Shown piece by piece: positions 3,101 to 64,000 of a stretch of DNA of 64,000 bases. A program made the position numbers and the translations under genes. Position 1 is the stretch's first letter; every line of letters begins with the position of its first letter. The DNA is from Anthopleura xanthogrammica (lineage: Eukaryota > Cnidaria > Anthozoa > Actiniaria > Actiniidae): assembly GCA_964019055.1 (NCBI GenBank), contig OZ025207.1:19183730-19247729 (forward strand), read 5' to 3'. Under the pieces are notes generated by a model. That model was not told where the DNA came from. It worked only from the letters and a program-made list of their open reading frames with translations, and did no database searches.

Positions 3101-6100
3101 ATTGATGTATGGATTAGATAGATTGATGGGTAGATTGGATAGATGAAAAGATGGGATGAATGGATGGGATGAGATGAGATGGATGAATGTTGGATAGGAA
3201 GAAACAATTAGAATCAATTGAGAGTTTCATGGCATTTTCACTGTTTGGGAAAACGCATTAATGCATTTTAAAAATAAAATTCAAATACATTAATTTGTAC
3301 TCACTTTGACCATATTTCTCCAAGCTGAAGGGATTGCATCCATACAAATACCAGTGTTCATCAATAAGAATACTCTATTATACCCTTGACTGACCTGTGT
3401 CAACAACAGTAACAAAAGTACTCAGAAATACAACTTAATTAATCTGTAAAAATTATACACTCACACTATATTCTTGACTAATATTCTGAACATGCAAGAC
3501 TACCGACTCAACTCCTGCATAAATTAATATGGAAGGAGGAAAATAACCAGGGAGGAAAATAACCAGGGAGTAACATCCTTGAAGCTAGCAAGAGAGAAAA
3601 TGAAGTCCCCTTACAAGAAGCACCCATGCAGAGGTGATTAAAAATATTACACTCTGTGGTTTTACTTTTTCCTTACTGCTCTTCACACTACGAGGCACAT
3701 GAGGTGTGGTTTTGTTAAATTACAAAAAGATTCTGGCATCATGTTGCAACTATTGCACAGTGTACCCAACTCTGAAAGAATGGTGTGCAACATGTAGAGT
3801 CGTTTTCATTAACACATGAAACAAAATCTAGTTATGAAAGTGTAATAGTCAGATAAACACAATAGTAAACAAAAGAATAAGAGTTAAGTAGTGCATGACA
3901 CGCTAAAGTATATTTCACAGGTTTATGAGAGTCACTCTATAGGTACACACAACAAGCTTCATCCAAGACCTAAGGTGGTTATGACCTTTCTTACATACCT
4001 CTGCACATTCTTGCCCTGCTTGTATGTTATCTTGGAAGTCATCCTGGATTTTATGGGTTTGCATTCTCTTTTCCCAAAGGCAAGCCTGTGCCTGCACCTA
4101 AAATGGAAAACAAAACACATTAGCAGTTGCACATGGGAAAACACATGAAATATGGAATGCAACTCAAACAAAGAATTTTATTCTCAAGAGAAAGACAAGT
4201 GGTCGGAAATGGGAAAACCTTGTATCCAAGCTAAAGGGGTCACTGTATTGTCTACCAATCCGTCCATTAATGTTTCAATATTTTGCTAGAAAAACTATGA
4301 ATCAGAATTTTTGTTCTATACCTACCATCATCAGTGACATAAGAGCCTCTAATGTATCTTGTGTCATGTCTACACTGGGAGAGTTGATGAAGTTATCTCT
4401 GGTATAGCCAAACACACCTATAATACATAAACTATTAGTATTCTGGTTATTCTAGAATTCCATGCATTATCTTAAAAGGTAGCTGTGCCCTTGCATTGAA
4501 ATAAGACAAACGGCAACCTGACAATGATAGAAACCTTATTCATACTTCTCTATCATTGCAAGCTCACCATTCGTCTCACTTCAAGGCAAAAGTACAACTA
4601 CCTTTCAAGATTGCATGGGGAACTAGGAAATGGACTATTGATTGGATAATATTCATGATTGTTAGGGACCTATGCACACTTAAGACGTGGACACATGGTG
4701 CAACATTGTACACAATATTGCAGGCAATGCTGCTGATTCAGAAGTAGGATCACTTTCTACTTCAGCAACATTGCGTGCAACAAATTACAATGTGTGACAT
4801 GGCTCACAACATTGATTGCCTGTGACATTGTGCACAATGATGCATCATTTGTCTGTAGTTTTAAAAACCCACTCCTCCCTGAAAAATATATTTACTTTTT
4901 ATAATCTATATTCAGTGGCTTTGATACAAATAACAGATTACTATCTCTGGCATTGCTGAAAGTTCATATGGGACGAGGACATTTATGTTACAGATAGTAC
5001 ACAATATATAATAATACAGGTTTTATTGACGGCATTGGAAGAAAATATATTCCGTATTGGCCTTCATTGCTTTGCGACTATGGCCAATACAGAATATATT
5101 TTTCTCACAAGTTATAATTATCACTTTGCAATATACCTGCCGCTTTCTGAAAACAAGAGAATGCAACCTTTACGCCTTCTTCTGTGTTTCTATCCTATTA
5201 ACACACAAAAGAATGGTTTTGCAGTGGTCAACATTCAGTTATCACTTTAGTAAGTTATCTTGATACAGGAGTATTTCTCCTGGATACTTGATACCAACAA
5301 GTCTATACTAGTTATACTAGTTATTTACCTGTTTTGTCCCTATTTGTGATAATAGAGCTCCAATGTTGAAAAGAACACTGGCCTGTGAAACAAAAATCAC
5401 TAACGTTACTGGAAGTATAAAAGAAAATCCTTCACTACACTCCAAATTCACATGCAACAAAATATGCATATTAAGTCATAAGTCTAAAAGCCGATTTACA
5501 CAGTACGACTTTTGCTTACAACTGTCGCATGCAATCTGCTTACACCACGCTAACAACATGAATTGCTTTGTGTAAATCAACCCTACAACTTGCTTACAGC
5601 TGTTGTGTACGACAAGAAAAAGTAGACTGTCTGTTGTATTAAGTTGTAGGGTTGATTTACACAATACAATTCGTGTTTGTTAGCATGGCGTAAACAGATT
5701 GCATGCGACAGTTGTAAGCAAAAGTTTTACCGTGTAAATCGGCCTTAAGATAAAGTAAAAATAAGCAAAGGAAAAAGCTACAAGGATGGATGGATGGATG
5801 GGTGGATTGATTGGTGGGTGTAGTGTTTACCTTCTCAAAAGCAACAGATCTTTGTATTTTTGGAAGCCCTGACAAAGCATCATACCTGCAGAGAAAAAAA
5901 AAAGGTATTCAACATTCCTTTGGGTCAAGGATGTAATCATTTACCCTCTCCTTATCTATACAAAACAGCACAATATCTGGGATACAAAATAGAGTGTCTA
6001 ACACTCAGCCCTCAGTGTTACTCATACCCCAAGATTCCAGTCACATTTTGCCCTATCCATCTTCAAATTTTATCAAAACCCTGAAACAACTTCTTGGCTG

Positions 6101-6799: not shown

Positions 6800-9700
6800 A
6801 GTATCTCCTAACTTATGCAAGTACTGTGAATCAATAATATCTAATATCTGGAACCTACCAGTGAAAGTAGACAGGCATGGGAGTTTTCTTGGGAAAGAAC
6901 TTCTTTTCTATAAAGTGCAACTGGTTGAAATACTGATAGAGCTTTTGGATACCCTTTTCGTCTCGAGTGGGGTTGCAGATACCCTTCAAGAAATAAAATA
7001 ATTTTAGCAAAATATTTGATAACCTAGTCTCCCTTTTTAATTTTGGGATTCCTGTGTTGAGTAGTTTAGAAGGTAGAGGAGAACTGGAAAGCAATTTTTC
7101 TTTCTTGTTGATCCTAGTCCCTCTCATCAAATGTTATACATAGGGAACTCAATTACAAAACCTGATTACAGGTTGCAATGCAAAGGTAGTATTCAAAGGT
7201 GGCTTTTATCCCCCTGGGAATATGTTTCTTTTCATAGACTCAGGTATACCGGTATTGAATTTTTTCATTTGAGTGATACTGTTAAACAAAGAAATAATAC
7301 TCAAGAGGAAGAACCTAGTGTGGAATATAGAAACACTACTCCTAATAAGAATAAGGCCTAGAGTACAAGGTACAGTATCACTGATTATTATATAGCTTAG
7401 ATAGTAAACATGCTCTGTTTAGTTGAGAACTGTGCTGTTGCCATGTTTGCATGCAAGCAGCTTCGCAATGAAGTGCAAAAAACAGCATTGAAAATTTATG
7501 TATTTTTTTCTTCCTATATTAAAAAATATATATAACAGCTTTTTCCATGCTTGCCCCAAGCTCATGCTTCCCTTCCTAATTCTTTTGTGTTTTCGTCAAG
7601 GAGCATGGACAAAGTTGTTTTATTTCATAAATACCATATGTCTAGTTTTACCTTTCTCATTTCACTGAAGTTTTGAAGCTCCACCTCATGTAATTCTGGG
7701 TCTTCAGAATAATGCTCTGTGATGAAATCCTAACAAAATGCAAAAAAATATATATAGAAATTTTAGAACGAACATTTAGTTTCAGAAAATATCTATAAAT
7801 GTTGAATTGGTTGCAATTGGATGATCACGAAACAATGGTCTCAAGTCAAGGTTGGCCTTGATAAATAAAAGAATCAAGTTCAGTCTCGACTTGAAACCAT
7901 TGTTTCGTGATCATCCAACCGAATTTGGGAAAGGTCTATTGATCTATAGCTTGCGTCACGTCCGGACAAATTCCTTGGTAACAGACTTTTCCAAGGTATT
8001 TGTCTGGATGTGACGCAGGCTAGATGATCTATGGTAAAAAGTTCTCAAACACAAAAGAAAGTGTTTAGCTTAAGTTTATGGAATGAAAATTGAAGTAGAT
8101 TTAGATTTTAATAATTATGCAAAAGGGTGATGAATCATCAGTGTTGCAAAGATTTCCTTGTGTTTAAAGAATCAATAGTTAATCTTTCCTGTAAATCTTA
8201 GTCTCAAAAGCACAAAGAATGTTAGTATTAGACAATAAATTATGGTCCTAACAACAAATATGTAAGCCTTACATATAGTCTTGCAAAGTCTTATTGTAGT
8301 ATATAATTATTCAACATAGTTTAAATTATAATGTACTATTTGTATCTTGTCTCAGGCTGAGCTTGTTTCGACTTCAAGTCTGTTCCCAGCCTGTGTTAAG
8401 CCGTTAAATAAAAATAATACAAATAATAATAATAAAAAAACACATCTCTAATATATGATTCAATTTTACCTACCATGAATGGAACCCTATAATTTAATTC
8501 TGCTGTTTCTCTTAAGCCAAGAGAGATCATGGGTATTTGTTTCTCCATACTCCTAGAGAAATACATTTAAAAAATATTATAACACTGTCTGGTACCTTGT
8601 TGAAAATTACAATATTATGGTGAGGGACTGAGTGTGTGCGAATAATTCTGGTATTTCTCTTAAGCCAACTTGAGAGTTATCATGGGTATTTGTTTTTCCA
8701 TGCTTCTGGAAACAGGTACAAAATGATATAAGTCTGGTACCAGTACGTTTTTGAATATTGAAAGTTTGAGCAAATGAAGAAACACTTTCAACATTGGATA
8801 TGCTGCACTAAAATGTCTATTATTAGGAACAATTATAATTCTTGGAATGGCAGGGTTTAAGTGTCTTTAATAACACTTGAGATTGATAATGACAGTATAT
8901 CAAATGTTGAGTAGAAAATGATTCAGCAAATTTGAACCTGTTCGCTATCAGAGTGTGGTATTTTACTGTACATTACATAACTATTCCTGTAGTATCATGT
9001 ATGGGTTGTCGCTACAGTAGTTAATATTGTACCACAGGGAGCCCACAGTCACTGGTAGAATCAGTGATTAAAATAAAATCTATCATGCATAAATGCATGT
9101 GCTCCTGCATGAGCTCAGCAGTGCTTCTGGATTGGTTGAAGTTCAAGTCTGAGCATATTATCAGCTGCTTACATTCCTAGTGTAAAATATAGTTTAAAGG
9201 GACAAAACTTTCAAAATTTCTACTAATATAAATGTGTACTGAGCTCATGCTATTTACGCATGAAAGATCTTATTTTAATCAATGATTCTACCAGTGGCTG
9301 TGGGCTCCCTGCGATTGTACATTTCCCAATCATATGAAAATCACTGTCCTTGACATGGAATGAGACATGGTCACACTTGACTTCAGACCATCATTATGCA
9401 TCATGTCTGTTAGGGATTCTAAGCCTGATTTCCTGGTTACGCTTTTTCTGTTTTATCCAGTGTTTTTATACCCCAAAATTTCTATTTTGCATTACATTTA
9501 ATATATAGACCCCTTGCAAGTGATGTCAAAGCAGCTCAATTTGAAAGACAAAATAAAAGAAGTTCAATATCCTGAGAATTAGAACCTATTGTTTTGTCCT
9601 CCAAATTGAGCTGCATTTCAAAGTGCTGCAAGGGGTCTATAAATAGAATTGTTGACTGAAATACTAATGGAAGTATGGAAACCCTTTCCTTTGCAGATTT

Positions 9701-35957: not shown

Positions 35958-38900
35958 TCACTTCTGTTTATATCTTAGTTGCGACATAACCAAAGAACAT
36001 ATGCTTTCAATTTCTCGAATTTCGTTCGGTTTTAAACTCTTTTTCCACGAATTTAACATTCCCGGGCCCACATGCTCGTGCGTGGTGCTGAATTTAAACT
36101 GTCCAGTCCGTGTTATTTGCTGAAACCGGTTCTCCATGGAGGGTGACGGGGGGAGCGCAAGAAACTGAAACACTCTCTGGGTAGTTTTCTTGGGTCTGAG
36201 AATAAGGTCCTCAAGTCGAATAACCCGTATGTAGTTTTTTGGAACGCTTTTGGCCATGCGCAAGACAGCATTTGTATGAGCGGCCCAAAAATGAGCCAAT
36301 AACTTGCTTCCTAACACATCTCGTTGTCCTTCGGGTTCTGAGAAAAAAAGTTCTTGGATAGCTCCGAGTTCTGAGGCATAGCCATTGCCATCTTGATTCA
36401 CACACCGTGCCTTTGCTAGTTTCATTACAAAGTCTTTTGTATTCCTTAGTAAGATAGGATTGAGTCTCAGTTCGTTCAACCAAGTGCTAACCCAGCTCCT
36501 TGGATCACGAACCACGATTATAGCTTTCATCCGGGACCCTAAAATTCTGCGCAACCAATGAAAGCGCAGTCCCCATCCGGGATCTTTCAAATGTACAGCT
36601 GGAAGAGACGTCTGTGCTCTTTGAGGAAAACTGGGATTGAGGGACTTAGGATCTCTAAGGTAACGACGAAACCAATTAGAAATGTTTAAGGACTTCTGGT
36701 CTTGTTGTTGTATCTGGAACATGCTACAAGGATCTAATGGCTCGTTTGAAGAATCAACTCGCCGAGCTTTAGTCCCACTTTTTACTCCAAAAATTTTACC
36801 AAAATCTTGGTTTTTCATTTCAAGATGGAAAAAGTCGTCGCTGTTTTTGAAAAGTTCGCCCAAAATCTCCCCACCGGCCCATGGTAAGGAAGTATAGACA
36901 ACGAATGGAGGACTTTGCCTGTTAACTGCTCTAAGAAAAGCGTTTTGGTATCGGTTGTTCAACACAATCTTTGACGGACTAAGATTCCATAAGCAGCTAT
37001 CCAGACTAGTGCAACCATGTAAAAACTCTACTATTGCAACCAACACATACGCTATGAGGAGAAACACAATAACAATCTTGAAATAGAAACGAGATGTTAG
37101 TTTCCTGACAACTTTTAAGTAGCAAAAGAGAAGCGACAAAAAAGACAATGTAGGTACCAACAGAAGTAGTATAGAATGGCCGTGATCTGGGGCTTCATGT
37201 AGATGACGCTTGCGTCTCATGAACGCCTTTTTAGTTTCGTTAGCTGCACCAGCCACGAATCGGATGGTTTTTGCTTTAACTCCCGAACCACGTTGACCTG
37301 CTTTATCAATAGTAACTTTAGCAAAACCGCCGAAGCCTAACCAATCAAACCGGACAGTTGTAAGGGCGTGTTTGGTTACTAAGGCAACCGCATACCTTAC
37401 GCCGTTGATTACTGTTGAAACGTGCACGCCATGATCCTGCGCACTGGATATGCGCAGTGACTTTATGTCGTTCCCAGGCCCTGCGAATAGGTATGCCACG
37501 CGAGTGTATTTGTCATGAAGCGGTGTTGTGATGTTCACAAAGTTTGTTTTCCCGTTCTTGAACTGAGAGAAATCATATTTTCCAACCAATGCAGTGCTTT
37601 TAGTCCCGTGCGAGTTCACCCAAATTGTTCTGAAGGTTTTGTTCCCGATGTTCATTCCCGCGCATGCGTATTGATGGCTATCCCAGCATTCCTCGAGGTG
37701 AAACTCATTTTTCACATTATGAAAGAATGCGCTCATATAATTGGTTGTGCTTTCTTTCTTTCTTTCCGAGTGATCTACAACAAGTAGAACACCAGGTGAC
37801 AACAAGATCAGACATCGATACACGCTAGCTAGTCCCAGATCCCCTCGATACCACGACGCCATTTCCCCACACATTAAAACCAGTCCCTCCTCGCTTGAAG
37901 ACGTGACGATCTTTCCCCGCGCTCTCCAGGGTATAATGGATCTATAATCAAACCACTTCAAGCACTCCCCTATCTGTCCCTCCAGGGGCTTAGAGCAGGG
38001 TGATGCAAAGGAAGGACCAAATAGTATAGCATTGTTGAGCCATGTATATTTGGGTCCATAGTATGTCTCTGTTATAAAAGGTATTCCATATGGCGCGAAC
38101 ACGAAGGAACCCTGATCTAAATGCTCGTGCCCTGGATTAAAATTTCTCCAGCTTTTAATCCATGGTACTGGGGGCCTACCTGTTACCATTTGATTGACAG
38201 CCCCGCCATGCAAAACACCGCACTTGAATGACAAATACACAGCATCTTCATCAACACTGGACTCAACACCAAGTCGAGGGTAAGTAGACATCCCATTTCT
38301 GTAAACAGCCACACCCCAGTCATTAAAGATATGCATATGTTCCGTGGTGAAATATGGCGGTGGTTTTGGCGCAATTCTCGGGTCAAAGAAGATAAATTCA
38401 GTATGTACAGTGGACGTAAGACCTGACATTGAGTTCACGAATCCAGATTCGTGTATCTTCGACGCCAGCCAATTCGCGTAACCATTTTTTAATATATATT
38501 TATCAAGAAAAAAAAGCTGACTTTGAGGTCCGTAATACCAACCAACTCCAGAATCTCCAATCCCTATTGTCTCCCTAAAACCAGGAAGAATAGTGTAGTA
38601 CATAAACCAGAAATGTTCCTGTAGCCAAATGTGTTTACGGAACGTCATCTTTAAGTGTCTCAGAGCAAAGAAAAGGTATTGCGTGAGCGAACGAGTTGTG
38701 TACGAACCGTAGGAAACTCCCTCGTTCATTGAACCATCTACAACGTAATTCAAGATGTAAATATTCCTGGCTAGCATTTGGTGGGCCCTTAGCTTCCACT
38801 TGGTGGCGAGTTTGGAGTATCTCGCGTGTCTTGATGCTACGAGGGATCCAGTTAGTAAGGCCATGTAATTTGTAGCGACATGATTCTGGATGTAACACTT

Positions 38901-39464
38901 TCCCCACCACACGCTAAACGATTTCTCATACAACTCTTCAGTTACGTTGACAATTTTTTCCATATATTGGATTCTCCGTTCTTTAGTCATATATTGATAA
39001 AGAAAGTCGTAGGCAGTTGCAATTCCAGTGAGGGAATGTGCAACAGGGACATCGTCACGCAAGCTGGCCTTTACTCTCCAATTAGGCAGGGCGGACAAGA
39101 TATCCATTGATCGAAAAACCATATTCCTTGCTTCTTTGTCGTCCTCGTACAAAACACAATACATCGCCATAGCACAAAGATTGTTGCCGTAAATTTCGTT
39201 CCATTTGGAAGAAAATTCATTCCAGTCAGAAGGAGGAATATTCGCTTTAGGGAACTGCTTGATACGGTTAACTACCTTGACGATTCTCGCAGCTATTGTT
39301 CTGTGTGTGGTGTTAGCTTCACGTCTCATTCGTAGAATATCCCCTTCGTTGAAGTAAAGGAACGGATGGAGAGAACGCGAAGGCTTGGGCTTCTTTCTCA
39401 AGCTAGAAATAAGCGAACAGATCGACAGCAAGAGAACGCCATTGAGCATAACATCCAGCTTCAT
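35958..39464 (-). CDS. DSEL: Dermatan-sulfate epimerase-like protein with C-terminal sulfotransferase domain
   Basis: One uninterrupted ORF of 1168 residues (human DSEL about 1210, also intronless). DSE family enzymes epimerise D-glucuronate to L-iduronate in chondroitin/dermatan sulfate in the Golgi lumen. Residues 1-21 look like a signal peptide. The epimerase region (about 30-740) shows NHVATNYMALLTGS (His195), EGVSYGSYTTRS (Tyr252/255), and PGHEHLDQGSF with His446/448 followed by PYGIPFITETYYGPKYTW; these match the positions of the catalytic His, Tyr and His in DSE. Two membrane segments lie at about 764-784 and 793-813. The C-terminal part (about 850-1168) has the sulfotransferase nucleotide-binding signatures TSLPWAGGEILGELF and IIVVRDPRSWVSTW. 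Sulfotransferase activity is inferred from family features only. Confidence 0.93.
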   Translation of the reverse strand: MKLDVMLNGVLLLSICSLISSLRKKPKPSRSLHPFLYFNEGDILRMRREANTTHRTIAARIVKVVNRIKQFPKANIPPSDWNEFSSKWNEIYGNNLCAMAMYCVLYEDDKEARNMVFRSMDILSALPNWRVKASLRDDVPVAHSLTGIATAYDFLYQYMTKERRIQYMEKIVNVTEELYEKSFSVWWGKCYIQNHVATNYMALLTGSLVASRHARYSKLATKWKLRAHQMLARNIYILNYVVDGSMNEGVSYGSYTTRSLTQYLFFALRHLKMTFRKHIWLQEHFWFMYYTILPGFRETIGIGDSGVGWYYGPQSQLFFLDKYILKNGYANWLASKIHESGFVNSMSGLTSTVHTEFIFFDPRIAPKPPPYFTTEHMHIFNDWGVAVYRNGMSTYPRLGVESSVDEDAVYLSFKCGVLHGGAVNQMVTGRPPVPWIKSWRNFNPGHEHLDQGSFVFAPYGIPFITETYYGPKYTWLNNAILFGPSFASPCSKPLEGQIGECLKWFDYRSIIPWRARGKIVTSSSEEGLVLMCGEMASWYRGDLGLASVYRCLILLSPGVLLVVDHSERKKESTTNYMSAFFHNVKNEFHLEECWDSHQYACAGMNIGNKTFRTIWVNSHGTKSTALVGKYDFSQFKNGKTNFVNITTPLHDKYTRVAYLFAGPGNDIKSLRISSAQDHGVHVSTVINGVRYAVALVTKHALTTVRFDWLGFGGFAKVTIDKAGQRGSGVKAKTIRFVAGAANETKKAFMRRKRHLHEAPDHGHSILLLLVPTLSFLSLLFCYLKVVRKLTSRFYFKIVIVFLLIAYVLVAIVEFLHGCTSLDSCLWNLSPSKIVLNNRYQNAFLRAVNRQSPPFVVYTSLPWAGGEILGELFKNSDDFFHLEMKNQDFGKIFGVKSGTKARRVDSSNEPLDPCSMFQIQQQDQKSLNISNWFRRYLRDPKSLNPSFPQRAQTSLPAVHLKDPGWGLRFHWLRRILGSRMKAIIVVRDPRSWVSTWLNELRLNPILLRNTKDFVMKLAKARCVNQDGNGYASELGAIQELFFSEPEGQRDVLGSKLLAHFWAAHTNAVLRMAKSVPKNYIRVIRLEDLILRPKKTTQRVFQFLALPPSPSMENRFQQITRTGQFKFSTTHEHVGPGMLNSWKKSLKPNEIREIESICSLVMSQLRYKQK

Positions 39465-39852
39465 GTTCGGTCTTTAACTTTGTTATTACTATACGAAGCT
39501 TGATTGAGGTCACTTCAGTCCACTGATGTGTGATCTTTGACAAATCCTTATTAAAATCTATGCTTGCACCTCGAGGGGAATTCCTTCTGACTCGGCCAAA
39601 TTCATGTATCTGTTCTGGTGTTTATCTGGTACAAGTGACGCGTTGTATTTTATATCAGTCTGGGATTGCCGTGTATCTGGCTAACCTTGTTTATCAAATG
39701 CGATTCGCTGGCTAGCCAGACAATATTTGAAATCTGAGAAGCCGCAATTAAAATTTAAGCCACAAATCTGATATCACTTCCTTGGACGACCGCAGAAAGA
39801 ATGCAGAAATAATGATATAGTGGAAACTGAAACAAGAATTTCTATGTATCTA
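39465..39852. promoter_or_regulatory. Upstream region of the epimerase-like gene
   Basis: Directly upstream of the ATG at 39464. No TATA box, repeat or other gene was recognised. Assigned by position only. Confidence 0.3.
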
Positions 39853-41884: not shown

Positions 41885-44800
41885 ATGGGAGCCAAACAGT
41901 CGTCTGCGAGTGCAGTGAATGGTCGGAGTAATAATCGTCATTCTGGGCCAGTTGCTAATGGTGAACACAGTAGAGTCGTTTCTTTAGATCCTAGGACTCG
42001 AACACGTTCTTTGAACAGCGTAGAACATTCTTTGTCAATACCTTCGCACCAAGACTCGTTTCAAGAGTCGGATTTGTCTTCGTCGAACGATGATAATTCT
42101 TCTCAACTTCGTAATCTTGGTTATTCAATGCAAGGAGCTCATTCCCTCCCGGCGCAGCTCTTTGCTACATCTTTTTTCACGGGTAAGACGAACTATATAC
42201 AAACCGAGTTATACTTTTTTTCTAGCGTACATCCATCCTTGAATCTCTATACAAAGCGGTTCTCTTGTAGCGAAGAGATTTAGTAGTGTTTTTCTGTTGT
42301 TTGAGGGCTGCATGTTGAGAAAGCATGATGACCTTATTTTGTCTTTTTTTCATACAGGAGTGAAATGCCCTGTGTGTTCAAAAGTCGTCATATCGGAGGA
42401 TATAGAATTACATCTAGTTCTTTGCCTTACCAAACCAAGACTGTCTTATAACGGTAAGATTAATATTCCATTTTTAGGGGTATATTTACTCAGTGATCCA
42501 GCCAAGTATAGATAGAATCCCCGGTTATAATCCCCACAAAAGAAACCGAAAGACGAGATATTTTGTTCTCGTATGCTAAAAAACAACCTCTCCAACACTC
42601 GATGTAACTAGAACACATCTGAACACGTCAAATCTATTCAACTTTCCTTCACAATGGAATCCTATTATCTGCGTTGTCTTCAAATTACGTCCAATTTGCA
42701 CACATGGCGTTCTGTGGTGAACTCTTCTCGCATACAAAATGAAAACAAAATAAGCTTAAGCTTACTTCCAAATTAAACATCCGCGAAAATTCATATTTTT
42801 ATACAAAAATTTAAAAGCTAGCTCACTATTATTTTAATACTCTGCTAAGAATTATTGCAACTACTTTTATTAAGGCAGTCGACAGCTTTGCAGTGCTTTA
42901 ATTTGTCATCTTAGCACGGTGTAGAAAGATTAGTGTTTAATCCTTGCAGAAAAGTATTCCTATCAATATTTAATAAGTTTTGCTAAGTGGCGGTAAAATT
43001 ATCTTCAGTTTTTCTTATCCTCCGAACAGTTTTTCAAGTCAACTATATTTTATACTTTTCTTATCGAAATTGAAATCTCCAGGGGCTAAACGCGGTTTCA
43101 GAACATGCATTCTGGACTTCTATCATTTGACTTTGCGATCAAATTTGTTCATGCGTTTGTTCTGACCTTTCAAGCATGGAAAATTAGTTGTCAGGTATTT
43201 GTTATTTACAAAATAATCTAATTTTGAAATCTAGATTTACAAAAGACTTGTTTTTTATCAGTTCTTTAGGAAATAGCTGTCAAAATTTACTCTAGTGACA
43301 AGTTGTCATAGATACTAGGATGGTTTTAGTCTTGTCTTAAACTGGAATTTGTATTGAAGATTATCATCAATTTGAAGCTTCGTACTTGAAAGATTATGGT
43401 ATTTAAGAGAGTTACATCACTTTGGTGAGATGTTTCAACTGGTCCATTTAAAGGTGTATTTACACACTCTATTGTCATGGTGACCCTAGGACAGATCCAG
43501 GGGTAGATTGGGTGGCTAGTCACCCACCTTTGGAGATGAAAAAGAATGAGAATAAAGGACCAGTGCCTTCATGGATTATTTAAGGGTTTGATAAAATTGG
43601 TCACGATCATGTCAGATGATGACATGGCATTTTTAATCTTGTGAGTTTTTCACAGCCTTTAAAAGCTTGCTCTAAATATCATTAACTTTTGCATTTCTTT
43701 TTCAGAGGATATTTTACAGTTAAATACTGGAGAGTGTGCAATATGTTTGGATGAGCTGAAAAAAGGTAGGTCATGAATTCTTGCAAGCATAATAAAGTCA
43801 AAAGGGCACTTGGATGAAAATCAATGAACATTGGAAATGACTTGAAACTTGGTTAAACTTATCTATTATATGGCCCCAATATTAGCCAAGTAACTTATTT
43901 TGTTCACAGTCAAAAGTAGCGGATAAAAATGATCAATTATTTTAGCATTTGTGAGTAAAATTTTTGACGTCATATATTCAACCCTATTGTTCTTTTAGCT
44001 TTTAAACCAAAATTTCTCAACTGCAAGAGGCTCTCAAGCTAAAACGTTTGCCAATCTGGTTTTCATAATAATAATTAAGTCATATACTTAAATTATTCGG
44101 ACTTTAAAAAATTTGGGTGTTTTCATCCAAGTGCTCCTTTAAGGGATGGTCAGTGCTTGGCATGAGTATATATACACTTATTTCAAAAAATGTTGTTGGA
44201 TGGAACGACTAAAGGCAAAAGGAACTATGATTGCGCTCATCATGCATGCAAAAAGTTTGATTGAAAACATGGGTACATCAAGTATGAAACATTAATTTTG
44301 TTTGTGACACCTACTTGAGAGGTATTTATAAGGAATATTCCAGCTCCTTTTAGTCATGCAATCCACATTCAACTTTCTCTCTGACAACCTTTTTTAAGGT
44401 GACTTACTACTTTAGCAAGGAATAATTACAAAATGTTCTTAGAAAGATATTTTACGAAGAATTTAACGCTGATTCCATGCAAACATGAAAAGTAAAATGG
44501 GGTGTCCCGAGCTCGTTTTCGAGATAATGAATTTTGAATATGACCATCTTGACAAGTTTTCGAAAGAAATATGGTGGAAATCAAGCTTTGCACACAAAAA
44601 ATCAGAACTCAAAAATTAAAAAAGCTCTGGACACAATTTTCTCAGGAAATATACTTTAAACATTATTTTCGAAGACTGACTAAAAATATTTGAAGAAAGT
44701 TTTAAAAATAAGCTAAATATTCAGCATCTCATTAACTTATAAACCGAAAATTGTACTCAAACAACAACAAAAACACATAAAACGCTTTTTTCATAAGTTC

Positions 44801-58530: not shown

Positions 58531-59829
58531 TTAAGGCTTCTTGCCTATTCTTTTAATGCTGCCTGTTTGTAATCTCTTCATCAAAAGAGTCGTTTCAATT
58601 TTTGCCGTTGGTTCGATTTTGTCGACAGATGAATCGAAGCCTCGCTTGATGTATTTGTCTAAAAAGTCTTGCGTGATTTCCGGGTCTATAGACTGGATTG
58701 CGTTACGTACTTCGTCGAGCGTGACTTCGCTGTAGGAAAAAAAGAAAGTAATATTATTGAAGGGAATGGTCTACAGAATTCAACCTCCCCTTGAAATTGC
58801 CCCGTCATCCTGAAGTCCCTTCTCATTCACCTACTCGTGAGACTACTTTTTAGAAGCTTTTTTTTCAGTTTTCTGATTTGTTTTATACCATAATACATGC
58901 ACACCATTTCACTTTCAGAGATGTTGGGTACCCGGGGACCGGGGCTGGGTCCCGGGTATCCCCACCCCTCTATAACTTGGGTCCAGTCAGATGACAACTA
59001 ACGTACCTGCCAGTCCCAAGCGCTGCTGTGATGTCCTTGATGTACAAAGCTTGTTCTAATTTATCTTGTTCGCGAATCTTGTCAACAAATGGGCCGGCAC
59101 GACCTTCCTCATCCTGTTGAATATATAATCATGCATACATTAAGGTAATACAAGCAACAAAATCGTGCGATCCCGACTTGTCGTGCAACATTGTTGCACT
59201 GCAAGTTGCAGATTAATTGTTGCTCATATTACAGCTAATTTACGTCACGCGTGACCAGTAACCCGAATGTTTTGATAGGAGTTTCGGCGGCTTCGTCTGA
59301 AATTCCAAATTTCGGCGCAAACTATGATCAAAACTCCGGTAACTTTTTTTTATTTTAAAAATAATTTTTTTACTTAGCGATGTGGTTGGCAAGTGAATTC
59401 TTTTGGTAATTATTTCACAATCATTCTTGATAGCGGGCCCAAAACATAATTTTTAACTGATTTTTTTTTGAATATCGGAGCTGATATTGGAGATTTGAAT
59501 TTGAATTGAATTTGAATTCTCAGATTTATTGGTCACGCGTGACGTAAATTAGCTGTAACACCCCGCGCACAATGCAACAACATTTTTATAGCGCGAACAA
59601 AGAACATTTGTTGCGAGCGTAATACGAGCAACATTCGTTAATGATGGCTGCAACGATGGCTGCTGTACGTATGCATAAACCGTACCTCTGTAAAAAGGTT
59701 CTTATACTGAATGGTTTCACCAGGCGATTCTTGCTCCGCTGCTTTGAGTAGTGCTTCAATCGAGTCATCATCTTTCAAGGGGAAAAATGCCCTCAGACAC
59801 TGCTCCATGTCTGACCGTGACAATGATCC
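58531..59829 (-). CDS. Unrecognised protein, C-terminal exons only; possibly EF-hand-like
   Basis: Three exons join in continuous frame: 59686-59829, 59007-59113 and 58531-58729, ending in a TAA at 58531-58533. They encode 148 residues. The sequence is acidic and helical (SRSDMEQCLRAFFPLKDDDS, EALLKAAEQE, LYIKDITAALGTGSEVTLDE, VRNAIQSIDPEITQDFLDKY) with a basic tail RLQTGSIKRIGKKP. The spacing resembles degenerate EF-hand helix-loop-helix pairs, but no loop has a full calcium-ligand set, so the family is uncertain. The exon at 59829 has a good acceptor and no start codon fits, so upstream exons must lie to the right, beyond the large mobile element or outside the window. Confidence 0.65.
59231..59557. 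mobile_element. MITE with ACAGCTAATTTACGTCACGCGTGACC ends
   Basis: Left acagctaatttacgtcacgc then gtgacca; right tggtcacgcgtgacgtaaat then tagctgt. Each end therefore carries a CACGCGTG-containing palindrome. It lies between two exons of the EF-hand-like gene. Confidence 0.75.
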
Positions 59830-60106
59830 CTGCAAAGAATAATTACTGGGAGTTATCATAAAGGTATTTCAAAGTCCAATATAAGGTTTTATTAGCTGGT
59901 TTAAAGGGGCACTTGGACGAAAATCGATGAAAATTGGAAATGACTTGAAACTTGGTTAAACCTATCTATATGGCTCTAATAGTATTAGTCCGGCAGCCGG
60001 CATGGCATACCTTGCATGGTAGTCAATACAATTGTTTTTGCTGTTTTATTACTCTATGAGGTGTGGACTTTAAGAAAATGCCGAATGACACTTTGTCATC
60101 CTTGGG

Positions 60107-60493
60107 CATCACGAGATAATGAGCTATTTTTACATTTTTACATTTCATAGCTTGGGCTTCCTGTGGTGAAAAACTTAAATTCATTTAAAAGCACTTATTC
60201 TAAACAAAAACTAAATTTTCTTTTTAGTGTGTAAACGATCTAAAGTCTGAGCCTTAGGAATATGATTGATGACACTTTGTCATCTTTGGGCATCACCATA
60301 TAATTAGCTTTTTTTGAATTTTTGATTCCATGCGTTGGGCTTCCTGTGGTGAAAAACTTAAAATCATTCAAAGGTGCTTTTCTTGTGATGAAAACTAAAA
60401 TTTTAACCTCCAGTGCTAGTTATATGGAGTCAGTGCAATATATACAGACTATTATGTTATGATAGGAGTCAAATCTGCTGATTTTAGAATGAT
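60107..60493. repeat. Left inverted arm of the nuclease element
   Basis: Runs from gggcatcacgagataatgag to gctgattttagaatgat. It contains two related sub-blocks, each with a gacactttgtcatc word and a tgggcttcctgtggtgaaaa word. The outer limit cannot be fixed because the right arm leaves the window. Confidence 0.9.
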
Positions 60494-60732
60494 AATTCCT
60501 TGTTATTTGATTGTACATGATGGCCGTTGGCTCGATTTGAGCTCATCCGCCCTTTGACAGGTCTTGTTTTTAGTCCTGCTGGGTGACATGCCACCCTCCT
60601 CACCAATACAAAATTGGTGGGGAAGTCAGTTTAGACGCCGACCACCCGTCCATGTGGCAGGTAGCACTGGGTTACATGGTACCAGTAGCAGGTTTCAAAA
60701 ACCTGACCTGACTTCAACTAGAAGGAGTGTCA

Positions 60733-62280
60733 TCAAGTCAACTTGTTTAGGCAGTCGTTTCCTGCATTGCAATTACAAAATATGGTACATGGAAGCTTGG
60801 AGCTATTGCAACTACATCTCAAGGTACGGCAAGGGTTTTTAGCTGTATTACAGTTGCATCGAATCATCTTGAGAACACAATCTGGAGCCAATTTCACACC
60901 ACAAGGTGCAGTTGTTGGAAGCAGGGTCTTGAGTGCTTCATCCTTGTCATACCCATATTCTGTCGGGTCAAGTACTGGTGGATGAAAGGAAGTCGCAGAT
61001 TTCCAGATGGATGTTTGCAGGTGTGCTCTCTTAACATTCTCAGCAAATGCTTCTGTTGTTGGAGGAAGTGTAGGGAGCTTAGGTGCAGTAGTAAAACCGT
61101 TGCCAAACTTTGCTGCCCGCATCTTGTAGCGCATTTCTGACATTGACTTAGCCTTGATCTTTTCACTATTATAGCAGGAGGCAATGAAGCTGGTTGCCTG
61201 GTTGATAACATCACTCATTTGGGCATCAACACACCCCATCTTTGACAGAGAGTTTGGATTGGCAGTCAGCTTTTTTAAAACAATGGCTTTACCAATTCCA
61301 AAGTAAGTGGGAACAGTGTCACACCCAGATAATGCATGCATTGCCAGAAGACCAGGAATGATTGACTTATGAGCTTCAACAGAGGCTTTTATGTCAATAA
61401 CAGATCTATTTTGGATGGGAGACCGCATAGTGAGCTCACAATTGAGATTCTCTTTATGGTAATGGTGCAACAGAAGGACGAAGACATCTGTGTCATCTGC
61501 CACAACATCAATGGCATAGGAATTCATCTTTGCGCACATAATAGCTTGCTGGACGATGATGTTGTCCGCTTCTTCGTGAGACGTTGAAATATCACGCCTT
61601 TGAATCACCACACCTTGATGTATCTCAGTAGAAACATTGCTGCTACCAGTAATGACTAGCTTGTTCACTGATGTATGGACATGAAATGACTGATCGTTAA
61701 TGATGTTGTTGCAAATGATAGATGTCAGCTGTTTCTTGTTTGATGCAACGGTAAGGATGGCCTTTTGTGATGGCAGAGGCATATTTTTTGTGAGCTGATA
61801 GACTCTACTTGCTTCACATTCTCGTTCATCTCTTGTTGAAGATTTAGTACTGTACTCTCTGTATCTGTCAAAAACCAGGTACACATCACTAGTACGCAGC
61901 TGTCTTTGGAGGTAGGACTTGAAATTGTTGACGAAATCTGACACGACACCTTTTACTGGCCAGTGGACTACCCATAAAACAGCAGAGCCATCCAATATTG
62001 TTGCTCCATGGGTTGTAGCAGCAGCAACCCTAGATGATTCCAACCTTGCGAGTCGATTTTTTAGGTCTGCTTTGGTCTTGCACAATCTCATCTTACCAGA
62101 ATCTTGAAACATTGAGGTAGGAACTGGGGACAATTCATGGCTCATCACGTCTTGAACATCGATGTTTCTGGAGCTAGCTTGGATGCCAATGACTCTACTG
62201 TATATTATGGTTGTATCATACAGCTTTTTGGATCCAATCCATTGCCAGAAATATTGGACATTGTCAGCGGTGTTACGCAT
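60733..62280 (-). CDS. FEN1/XPG-like nuclease domain with C-terminal CXC (tesmin/TSO1-like) domain, element-encoded
   Basis: A 515-residue ORF, probably the last exon of a longer gene; a good acceptor (tttttcctctag) at 62302 would extend it by seven codons. The motif series of the FEN/XPG 5' nucleases is present in order: ATILDGSAVLW (Asp97, like FEN1 Asp34), VYLVFDRYREY (Asp138, like Asp86), HEEADNIIV (Glu237 and Asp239, like Glu158/160), VVADDTDVFVLL (Asp263 and Asp265, like Asp179/181) and ALSGCDTVPTYFGIGKAIVL (Asp321 and the helix-hairpin-like GIGK, like Asp233). The C-terminus (475-510) is a nine-cysteine CXC region: CNCNTAKNPC, CSCNSSKLPC, CNCNAGNDCLN. From memory, uncharacterised repeat-associated proteins with this motif order occur in other invertebrates and fish. 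Role in transposition is inference. Confidence 0.75.
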   Translation of the reverse strand: MRNTADNVQYFWQWIGSKKLYDTTIIYSRVIGIQASSRNIDVQDVMSHELSPVPTSMFQDSGKMRLCKTKADLKNRLARLESSRVAAATTHGATILDGSAVLWVVHWPVKGVVSDFVNNFKSYLQRQLRTSDVYLVFDRYREYSTKSSTRDERECEASRVYQLTKNMPLPSQKAILTVASNKKQLTSIICNNIINDQSFHVHTSVNKLVITGSSNVSTEIHQGVVIQRRDISTSHEEADNIIVQQAIMCAKMNSYAIDVVADDTDVFVLLLHHYHKENLNCELTMRSPIQNRSVIDIKASVEAHKSIIPGLLAMHALSGCDTVPTYFGIGKAIVLKKLTANPNSLSKMGCVDAQMSDVINQATSFIASCYNSEKIKAKSMSEMRYKMRAAKFGNGFTTAPKLPTLPPTTEAFAENVKRAHLQTSIWKSATSFHPPVLDPTEYGYDKDEALKTLLPTTAPCGVKLAPDCVLKMIRCNCNTAKNPCRTLRCSCNSSKLPCTIFCNCNAGNDCLNKLT

Positions 62281-63115
62281 GAATGAAAATGAAGTGGTTT
62301 TCTAGAGGAAAAATATAACTACATGGTTTCCAAGCACATATTTATATTCAACTATGATGTTAGTAAAACAATTCTTACCAAAAAATAGTTACTTGACAAT
62401 ATCAAAAGAACAACTATTATTTTTCTGTTGATAAGCCTCACCACAGGAAGCCCATGAAGGACAAGAAACAAGTTTCAAACGTAAATCGTTACTTTAAGCT
62501 TCCTTTTTGTATCTCAGCAGTCAATAGGAGCTTGTAAAAACAAAATTGCGATATTTAGGGGGTTTTGAAGCTGTTTGGAGCAGTTCTCTGGTTTCTTGTC
62601 ATTTTTAACTGAAAACTACGAGCTAACAACGCGTCGAATCGCTTAAAATTTAACCTAACTTCAAGCTTCTTGGGAACCTACATTCTAAAGGCATGCTGTC
62701 TATTTTGAGCGGTTTTGGATTTATTAAACACTCGTTTGGTGATATCGAGGTGGAGCTCTTTTACTTTTAAATTTTTTCGAGCTCAAATAAGACGATTTTG
62801 GGGTCAAGTGTGGCCAGATTTATAGACGATGTATGGAATCTAGAGCTTTCGAAGCCTTTCGAAGGCAAGTAGTCCGGGAACCAATATGTCGCATGATTCA
62901 ATGATCATTTTAGGCTTATTTAGTAGCTTGTAGGGTGGGTTGTTTGTCGCGATGTGGAGCTCAGAGGAAATAAAACCCTATTCGCCGTAAATAGAGGAAG
63001 CTCTATATTCCCCATACATTTCCTATAAGACTCGGCGGCTATTTTGTAAGCTGAAACGCATCATTGCGCATGTATGAGCAGGCTCATGTCCCATATTTCT
63101 GGCAATGTTGATGTG

Positions 63116-63610
63116 CTATTTTCTGTCAGCAATGGTTTTCACCCCTTTTGAAATGGTGTTGTAGAAACCTGTTGGCCATCCACTCTCGTACTCACTCATT
63201 TTCTTCTTTCCAAGGTTCACATCATCATGAACTGTTACAGCTTCATCAGCAATCTGGCCACTTACGATGTTGATGATGCTTGGGGGATGTAAAGCAGGAT
63301 CGAGGGGATTTATGCACAATTCAAGTTTCTTCCTGATGGCATCTCTGTCCGCTGCGTCTGCTTCAGTTCTTGTCTTCCTCTCTTCCTTGTGGATTTCTTG
63401 TGTCGTTTCTTCTCCATCACTTGTAAGGCTAAAAACGTCTTGCTCAAGATGTGAACAAATGTGTAGACCAAGTGCCCATGTCTTCAGTGTTTCAGGTTTC
63501 AACGTGATCCCAATGATTCCACCAGGGCCGTGTCCATAGCGCATAAAGGTGGTCTCTATGTACATGTCACTCCATATACCATTCCATAAACCAGGGACAT
63601 GCCGCATCAC
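63116..63610 (-). CDS. Upstream coding block of the element protein (GGIIG region)
   Basis: An open block of 164 codons ending in a stop at 63116. It contains WSDMYIETTFMRYGHGPGG then IIGITLKPETLKTWAL and ends GWPTGFYNTISKGVKTIA. As I recall, uncharacterised element proteins related to the block at 60733-62280 have a GGIIG/GGLVG region and a W-P-x-x-F motif just before the nuclease domain, so both blocks probably belong to one gene. The first residues follow a splice-acceptor-like gattttag, so earlier exons should exist to the right. A donor is possible at aaaggg/gtgaaa (phase 0), but the true junction with the next block is not certain. The stop could also mean decay. Confidence 0.55.
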   Translation of the reverse strand: MMRHVPGLWNGIWSDMYIETTFMRYGHGPGGIIGITLKPETLKTWALGLHICSHLEQDVFSLTSDGEETTQEIHKEERKTRTEADAADRDAIRKKLELCINPLDPALHPPSIINIVSGQIADEAVTVHDDVNLGKKKMSEYESGWPTGFYNTISKGVKTIADRK

Positions 63611-64000
63611 ATCATTCTAAAATCAGCAGATTTGACTCCTATCATAACATAATAGTCTGTATATATTGCACTGACTCCATATAACTAGCACTGGAGGTTA
63701 AAATTTTAGTTTTCATCACAAGAAAAGCACCTTTGAATGATTTTAAGTTTTTCACCACAGGAAGCCCAACGCATGGAATCAAAAATTCAAAAAAAGCTAA
63801 TTATATGGTGATGCCCAAAGATGACAAAGTGTCATCAATCATATTCCTAAGGCTCAGACTTTAGATCGTTTACACACTAAAAAGAAAATTTAGTTTTTGT
63901 TTAGAATAAGTGCTTTTAAATGAATTTAAGTTTTTCACCACAGGAAGCCCAAGACATGAAATGTAAAAATGTAAAAATAGCTCATTATCTCGTGATGCCC
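63611..64000. repeat. Right inverted arm of the nuclease element (continues past the edge)
   Basis: Begins atcattctaaaatcagcaga and mirrors the left arm to the last base of the window. Its inner edge falls on the likely splice acceptor (gattttag) of the coding block at 63116-63610. Confidence 0.9.

Follow-up and report, generated by a model that had tools for sequence, protein, structure and literature searches.

A mobile element close to the right edge of the analysed window, a 64,000-nucleotide stretch of the Anthopleura xanthogrammica genome (C2:19183730-19247729 of a 290-Mb, 125-contig assembly), occupies positions 59986-64128 (4143 bp), with its final 128 bp lying beyond the window end and read with the adjoining genome sequence. 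It is bounded by two long inverted arms, which enclose two open reading frames (ORFs) on the minus strand and an unrelated repeat between them (Table 1). A preliminary description of the window, made from the letters alone, had recognised arms of at least 390 bp and the longer ORF, and had proposed a mobile element driven by a FEN1/XPG-like nuclease; the second ORF, 63116-63610, was overlooked. Inside the window the arms pair over 390 nt (60104-60493 with 63611-64000) at 99% complementarity, and their full length is 485 bp at 99.38% identity. Each arm contains an internal direct repeat (60085-60403 in the left arm) with a period of ~184 bp and about 81% identity, possibly representing transposase-binding repeats.

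Table 1 Features of the element and its insertion site (window coordinates).
Feature	Position	Strand	Basis or remark
First part of ~343-bp host repeat, not element	59903..59985	+	Remainder resumes right of 64128
Target-site duplication TAT, 3 bp	59983..59985 (left); 64129-64131 (right, beyond window)		Flank comparison
Left terminus TAGTCCGGCAGCC	59986..59998	+	Inverted partner closes element at 64128, beyond window
Left arm, 485 bp	60009..60493	+	99.38% identity with right arm
Nuclease part of ancestral protein, open frame: predicted FEN/XPG-like domain, Cys-rich tail	60733..62239	-	ORF and profile comparison
Unrelated 868-bp repeat, 22-nt inverted ends (CATTGCC...)	62240..63107		Present in window copy alone
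Remnant of transposase-region end, contains SDMYIE	63116..63610	-	Stop codon closes ORF before nuclease frame
Right arm, 390 of 485 bp within window	63611..64000	-	Runs on to 64095 outside

The element has split a host repeat, and an uninterrupted relative of that repeat at 43800-44142 provides a paralogous empty site: positions 1-85 of this relative match the left flank at 87%, and positions 84-343 match the right flank at 78%. The relative is 343 bp long and has inverted, AAGGGCACTTGG-like ends. The left border of the element had been placed at 59902, yet 59903-59984 belong to the repeat that hosts the insertion. A TTAA-like edge, which had suggested a Kolobok transposon, is likewise that of the neighbouring repeat and not of the element.

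Searched against the whole genome, the arm sequence yielded 15 matches. Twelve correspond to arms of the element in its six short copies, two to the ends of a full-length relative termed L009 (485 bp matched at 99% identity and 160 bp at 84%), and one to a 275-bp fragment. The short copies are the window copy and L011-L015; the window copy has 4143 bp, L015 has 3628 bp, and each of the other four has 3275 bp. Their termini begin with TAGTC and carry the identical 13 bases TAGTCCGGCAGCC at both ends in every copy, and in the window copy the linkers between termini and arms are unequal on the two sides. All six share a single deletion junction, and each is flanked by a separate 3-bp duplication (TAT, TCT, CTA, AAG, TAA, and TCC). 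Because the six copies have their own duplications and a paralogous empty site exists, the short form is a mobile element, as had been claimed, and because the copies are 99.36-99.91% identical over 3261-3275 shared positions, it constitutes a young, recently mobile family. Single, syntenic copies, named beforehand as an outcome that would speak for a host gene, were not what the genome search returned: the near-identical copies lie at unrelated sites.

The greater length of the ORF at 60733-62280 (515 aa) in the window copy is owed to the 868-bp repeat. Its first ~14 codons (62240-62280) are located within this repeat, the frame extends to 62280/62301 solely by way of it, the ATG at 62280 sits in it, and the other near-identical copies align to the 515-aa protein from residue 14 or 15 onward. 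The repeat was inserted between a C and a T beside the stop-codon site with no visible target-site duplication, and has at least 41 genome matches at 97-100%, its own copy included (40 of 525 candidates scored). We considered and rejected the possibility that the two minus-strand ORFs are separated by an intron, as 62240-63107 is an abundant repeat missing from the five other short copies and from L009. A 20-nt motif (TCACCACAGGAAGCCCA...) is common to the 868-bp repeat and the arms of the larger element.

Both ORFs trace back to one ancestral protein. L009 (about C2:4854295-4860378) has the same left end as the window copy and a single frame, open from stop to stop over 1501 aa, in which the two window ORFs are continuous: 60733-62280 corresponds to the C-terminal part, and 63116-63610 to the stretch directly upstream. 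In all six short copies, the transposase remnant and the nuclease frame are divided by a stop codon. A genome search with L009 residues 1-903 returned one full-length near-identical match, L009 itself, whereas the six short copies keep residues 831-903 only, so that ~830 codons are gone from them. The structure of L012 reveals how the remainder is arranged, being composed of L009 1-2759 (99.13%), inverted L009 508-24 (485 bp, 98.97%), and the outermost right bases of L009. As L012 consists of L009 segments plus one inverted end, and the junction is common to six copies, the short copies are deletion derivatives. The near identity of the arms had been read as recent activity or gene conversion; youth indeed contributes, yet the arms are nearly identical because the nuclease-side end was copied in inverted orientation. 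The two ends of L009 itself are alike over 160 bp only, at 84%.

We therefore consider it likely, at a probability of roughly 85%, that the window holds a rearranged, non-autonomous copy derived from a DNA transposon that encodes, in one protein of ~1500 aa, a DDE-type transposase region followed by a C-terminal FEN/XPG-like nuclease with a Cys-rich tail. A single event would account for the derivative: while a broken element was being repaired, a switch of template would have placed an inverted copy of the nuclease-side end on the opposite side and removed the first ~830 codons of the frame. The product would then have multiplied. Such a template switch appears to be the simplest route to the short form.

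The absence of a DDE transposase, noted beforehand along with the idea of a nuclease as driving enzyme, does not extend to L009, whose single frame includes a transposase-like region ahead of the nuclease. Motifs in this region were compared among seven distinct proteins, all from the same genome and several with incomplete frames. Among those that reach the respective motif, DNxD is present in 4/4, a DxxxY-type Asp in 6/6, GxxH in 6/6, and DxxxE in 7/7. The conserved D, D, and E resemble a DDE-type transposase pattern, with a catalytic role predicted for these residues, and the window copy keeps only the E part.

The FEN/XPG relationship of the window protein was approached with an alignment of seven distinct proteins from the genome (A1). 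The seven acidic residues D97, D138, E237, D239, D263, D265, and D321 occur at the positions and in the order described before, and all of them are invariant in the seven aligned proteins (D81, D122, E221, D223, D247, D249, and D305 in A1 numbering); a GIGK motif is found in four and has diverged in three. Compared with a FEN1/EXO1/GEN1 profile by hhalign, A1 reached a probability of 81% and an E-value of 1.2e-5 over 211 columns, with 13% identity in the aligned columns. The score was 48.8, as against a maximum of 25.3 among 200 column shuffles (0/200 as high) and 14.2 for the reversed profile, and a transposase-region profile used as control gave no match to FEN1/EXO1/GEN1. A search of the PDB with A1 placed EXO1 in register at the GCD...GIG motif (E 0.17), with a CXC domain ranked ahead (E 0.032); the Cys-rich tail weakly resembles CXC domains. 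The FEN signal came only with the A1 profile: the window protein on its own matched nothing significantly in Pfam, NCBIfam, PHROGs, or the PDB. A motif expression written beforehand matched FEN1 and missed the window protein (0/20000 shuffles matched), in our reading because it allowed too little variation in spacing ahead of its last Ala. Relatives sought in viral contigs and genome contigs with the protein and a degenerate motif were not confirmed in any case, and phage records searched for relatives contained none. Similar long proteins are presumably common in invertebrate and fish sequence sets.

Taken together, the invariant, ordered acidic residues and the profile match make a FEN/XPG relationship likely and point at a predicted nuclease, which sustains this part of the preliminary description. 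The window protein shares with FEN1, EXO1, GEN1, and XPG the order of acidic motifs, a GxD...GIG motif, and profile similarity, but is very divergent, has a Cys-rich tail, and in full-length relatives is fused to a transposase-like region. In the fold check that had been suggested along with the profile comparison, Foldseek returned no meaningful fold match for either of two low-confidence models.

Several observations weigh against the FEN/XPG relationship or against the derivation from a transposase and nuclease transposon, and concern both halves of the protein and its presumed parent. For the nuclease half, the Pfam XPG model matches none of the seven members, EXO1 reaches only the E-value given above in the PDB, hhalign of the single sequence against FEN1 stays at shuffle level (90/300 shuffles as high), and the two single-sequence AlphaFold models made without alignment are unusable, with predicted local distance difference test (pLDDT) scores of 34 and 37. 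For the transposase half, the only Pfam match is DUF6589, sub-threshold and in two of the seven members (best E 7.3e-6), and the PDB yields one chance-level match only. L009 lacks the last terminal bases at its right end (near 7869-7879) and has no matching duplication, and no complete mobile parent with both ends intact was found in the assembly.

Further relatives in the same genome also start with TAGTC and carry 3-bp duplications. L016, L017, and L020 have frames of 1595, 1593, and 1398 aa, duplications TTA, CTC, and TTT, and arms of 714-716 bp at 99.4-99.7% identity; they were probably active recently, and their arms show that long near-identical arms therefore occur also together with a transposase region. 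L018 and L019 contain 1399-aa frames, with duplications ATA and TGT. Over four sets, 13 of the 14 elements examined, the window copy included, are flanked by a 3-bp duplication, the exception being L009 with its damaged right end. A young second family is represented by L026 (1820-5817) and L027 (1689-5686), each a 3998-bp palindrome that has 1793-nt arms (98.8%) and contains two inverted nuclease frames, one of 610 aa and one of 364 aa. Their duplications are TAC and AAA, and they are two of five such inverted pairs in the genome search. No transposase region was found in the L026 and L027 stretches. With the nuclease part of L022, an element that has a transposase-like region, their arms share 99.5-99.9% identity. 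At least two independent losses of the transposase, with the nuclease-side end kept and inverted, have taken place in this genome, each followed by multiplication of the product. We regard it as doubtful that this recurrence is anything but chance; were it otherwise, such derivatives would be favoured by the nuclease-side end, or by an action of the nuclease on foldback arms and their repair, and would then be partly self-helping parasites of full-length elements.

The best label for the full-length element is the AcademX lineage, whose nuclease we take to be XPG-like. This lineage was reportedly placed within the Academ superfamily by Kojima (2020, Mob DNA 11:15), and the tentative assignment follows from nuclease and duplication length as described for it. 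In the part of PMC10045372 consulted, duplications are 3 or 4 bp in AcademX and 9 or 10 bp in AcademH, related to the encoded nuclease and helicase. The duplications of 3 bp found here fall in the AcademX range, the nuclease agrees as far as profile comparison predicts it, and transposase-like region and nuclease reside in one protein. The window copy differs from AcademX in that most of the transposase region is missing and the second arm is a copied end. The AcademH features are at odds with the 3-bp duplications, and Pfam scans of six long frames gave no helicase family. A literature search retrieved no paper pairing Academ with XPG (whole words) and none naming DUF6589; among the passages covered, a nuclease in Academ appears only in that of PMC10045372 (the others being from PMC9587614, PMC10799480, PMC9143410, PMC10294476, PMC5704228, and PMC8290104).

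A derivative of the same non-autonomous kind, stemming from a DNA transposon superfamily other than Academ, is improbable, even if the Academ label draws on nuclease and duplication length from a single passage (PMC10045372). According to the passages of PMC9587614 and PMC10045372 consulted, Kolobok and its nuclease lineages make TTAA duplications and AcademH those of 9-10 bp, whereas the duplications here are of 3 bp and varied, none of the six listed for the short copies being TTAA. The Kolobok lineages resemble the present element as DDE transposons with an accessory nuclease, but the nucleases of KolobokP, KolobokE, and KolobokD have other folds (His-Me finger, PD-D/ExK, and DEDDh; PMC9587614, in the part consulted).

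Less probable still is a nuclease-driven element, as suggested at the outset, in the form that the FEN/XPG-like enzyme would cut the folded arms and suffice for mobility, rendering a transposase dispensable. The nuclease frame is open in five of the six short copies (broken in L015), and the L026/L027 family has likewise multiplied; it has long arms and nuclease frames, and its stretch yielded no transposase. However, ends and 3-bp duplications are the same as in elements with a transposase region, the short copies are deletion derivatives, and all of them carry the stop codon described above, which parts nuclease frame and remnant. The five open frames differ by 7 replacement versus 4 silent changes, which gives no sign of protection, the numbers being too few to decide. 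A host gene lying by chance between inverted repeats, suggested by the open 515-aa frame and the invariant active-site positions among relatives, is ruled out by the presence of six near-identical copies, each at an unrelated site and flanked by a duplication of its own, by the empty site, and by the 95 matches to the window protein in a protein search of the genome.

For the transposase and nuclease transposon with its deletion derivatives, the following scheme can be envisaged. Cutting and joining at the TAGTC ends would be done by the DDE region of the full-length protein, generating 3-bp duplications, and transposase supplied in trans would recognise the TAGTC termini and move the short copies. 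The nuclease in full-length elements would be accessory, trimming or opening flap, hairpin, or branched DNA that results from excision or repair. Internally deleted non-autonomous DNA transposons and foldback-type derivatives are the general comparison. They likewise have lost the transposase and kept the ends, form young uniform families, and can have long inverted arms; the present element differs in retaining a long stretch of accessory coding sequence and in having an inverted copy of the nuclease-side end as its second arm. The striking pattern at the locus is thus best read as that of an element derived from a DNA transposon of a known, nuclease-bearing kind. Full-length relative, six derivatives, empty site, and duplications form a clean set for studying the origin of derivatives and long arms, and, if the nuclease is active, would make it possible to test directly why a structure-specific nuclease is joined to the transposase in some DNA transposons.

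Two further features were observed elsewhere in the window. A 33-nt inverted repeat (97%; 59229-59261 and 59526-59558, 264 nt apart) lies left of the host repeat and possibly belongs to another small element. On the minus strand, 35958-39473 contains an open frame of 1171 aa, which we take, by eye, to recall a dermatan-sulfate-epimerase-like protein with a sulfotransferase-like end.

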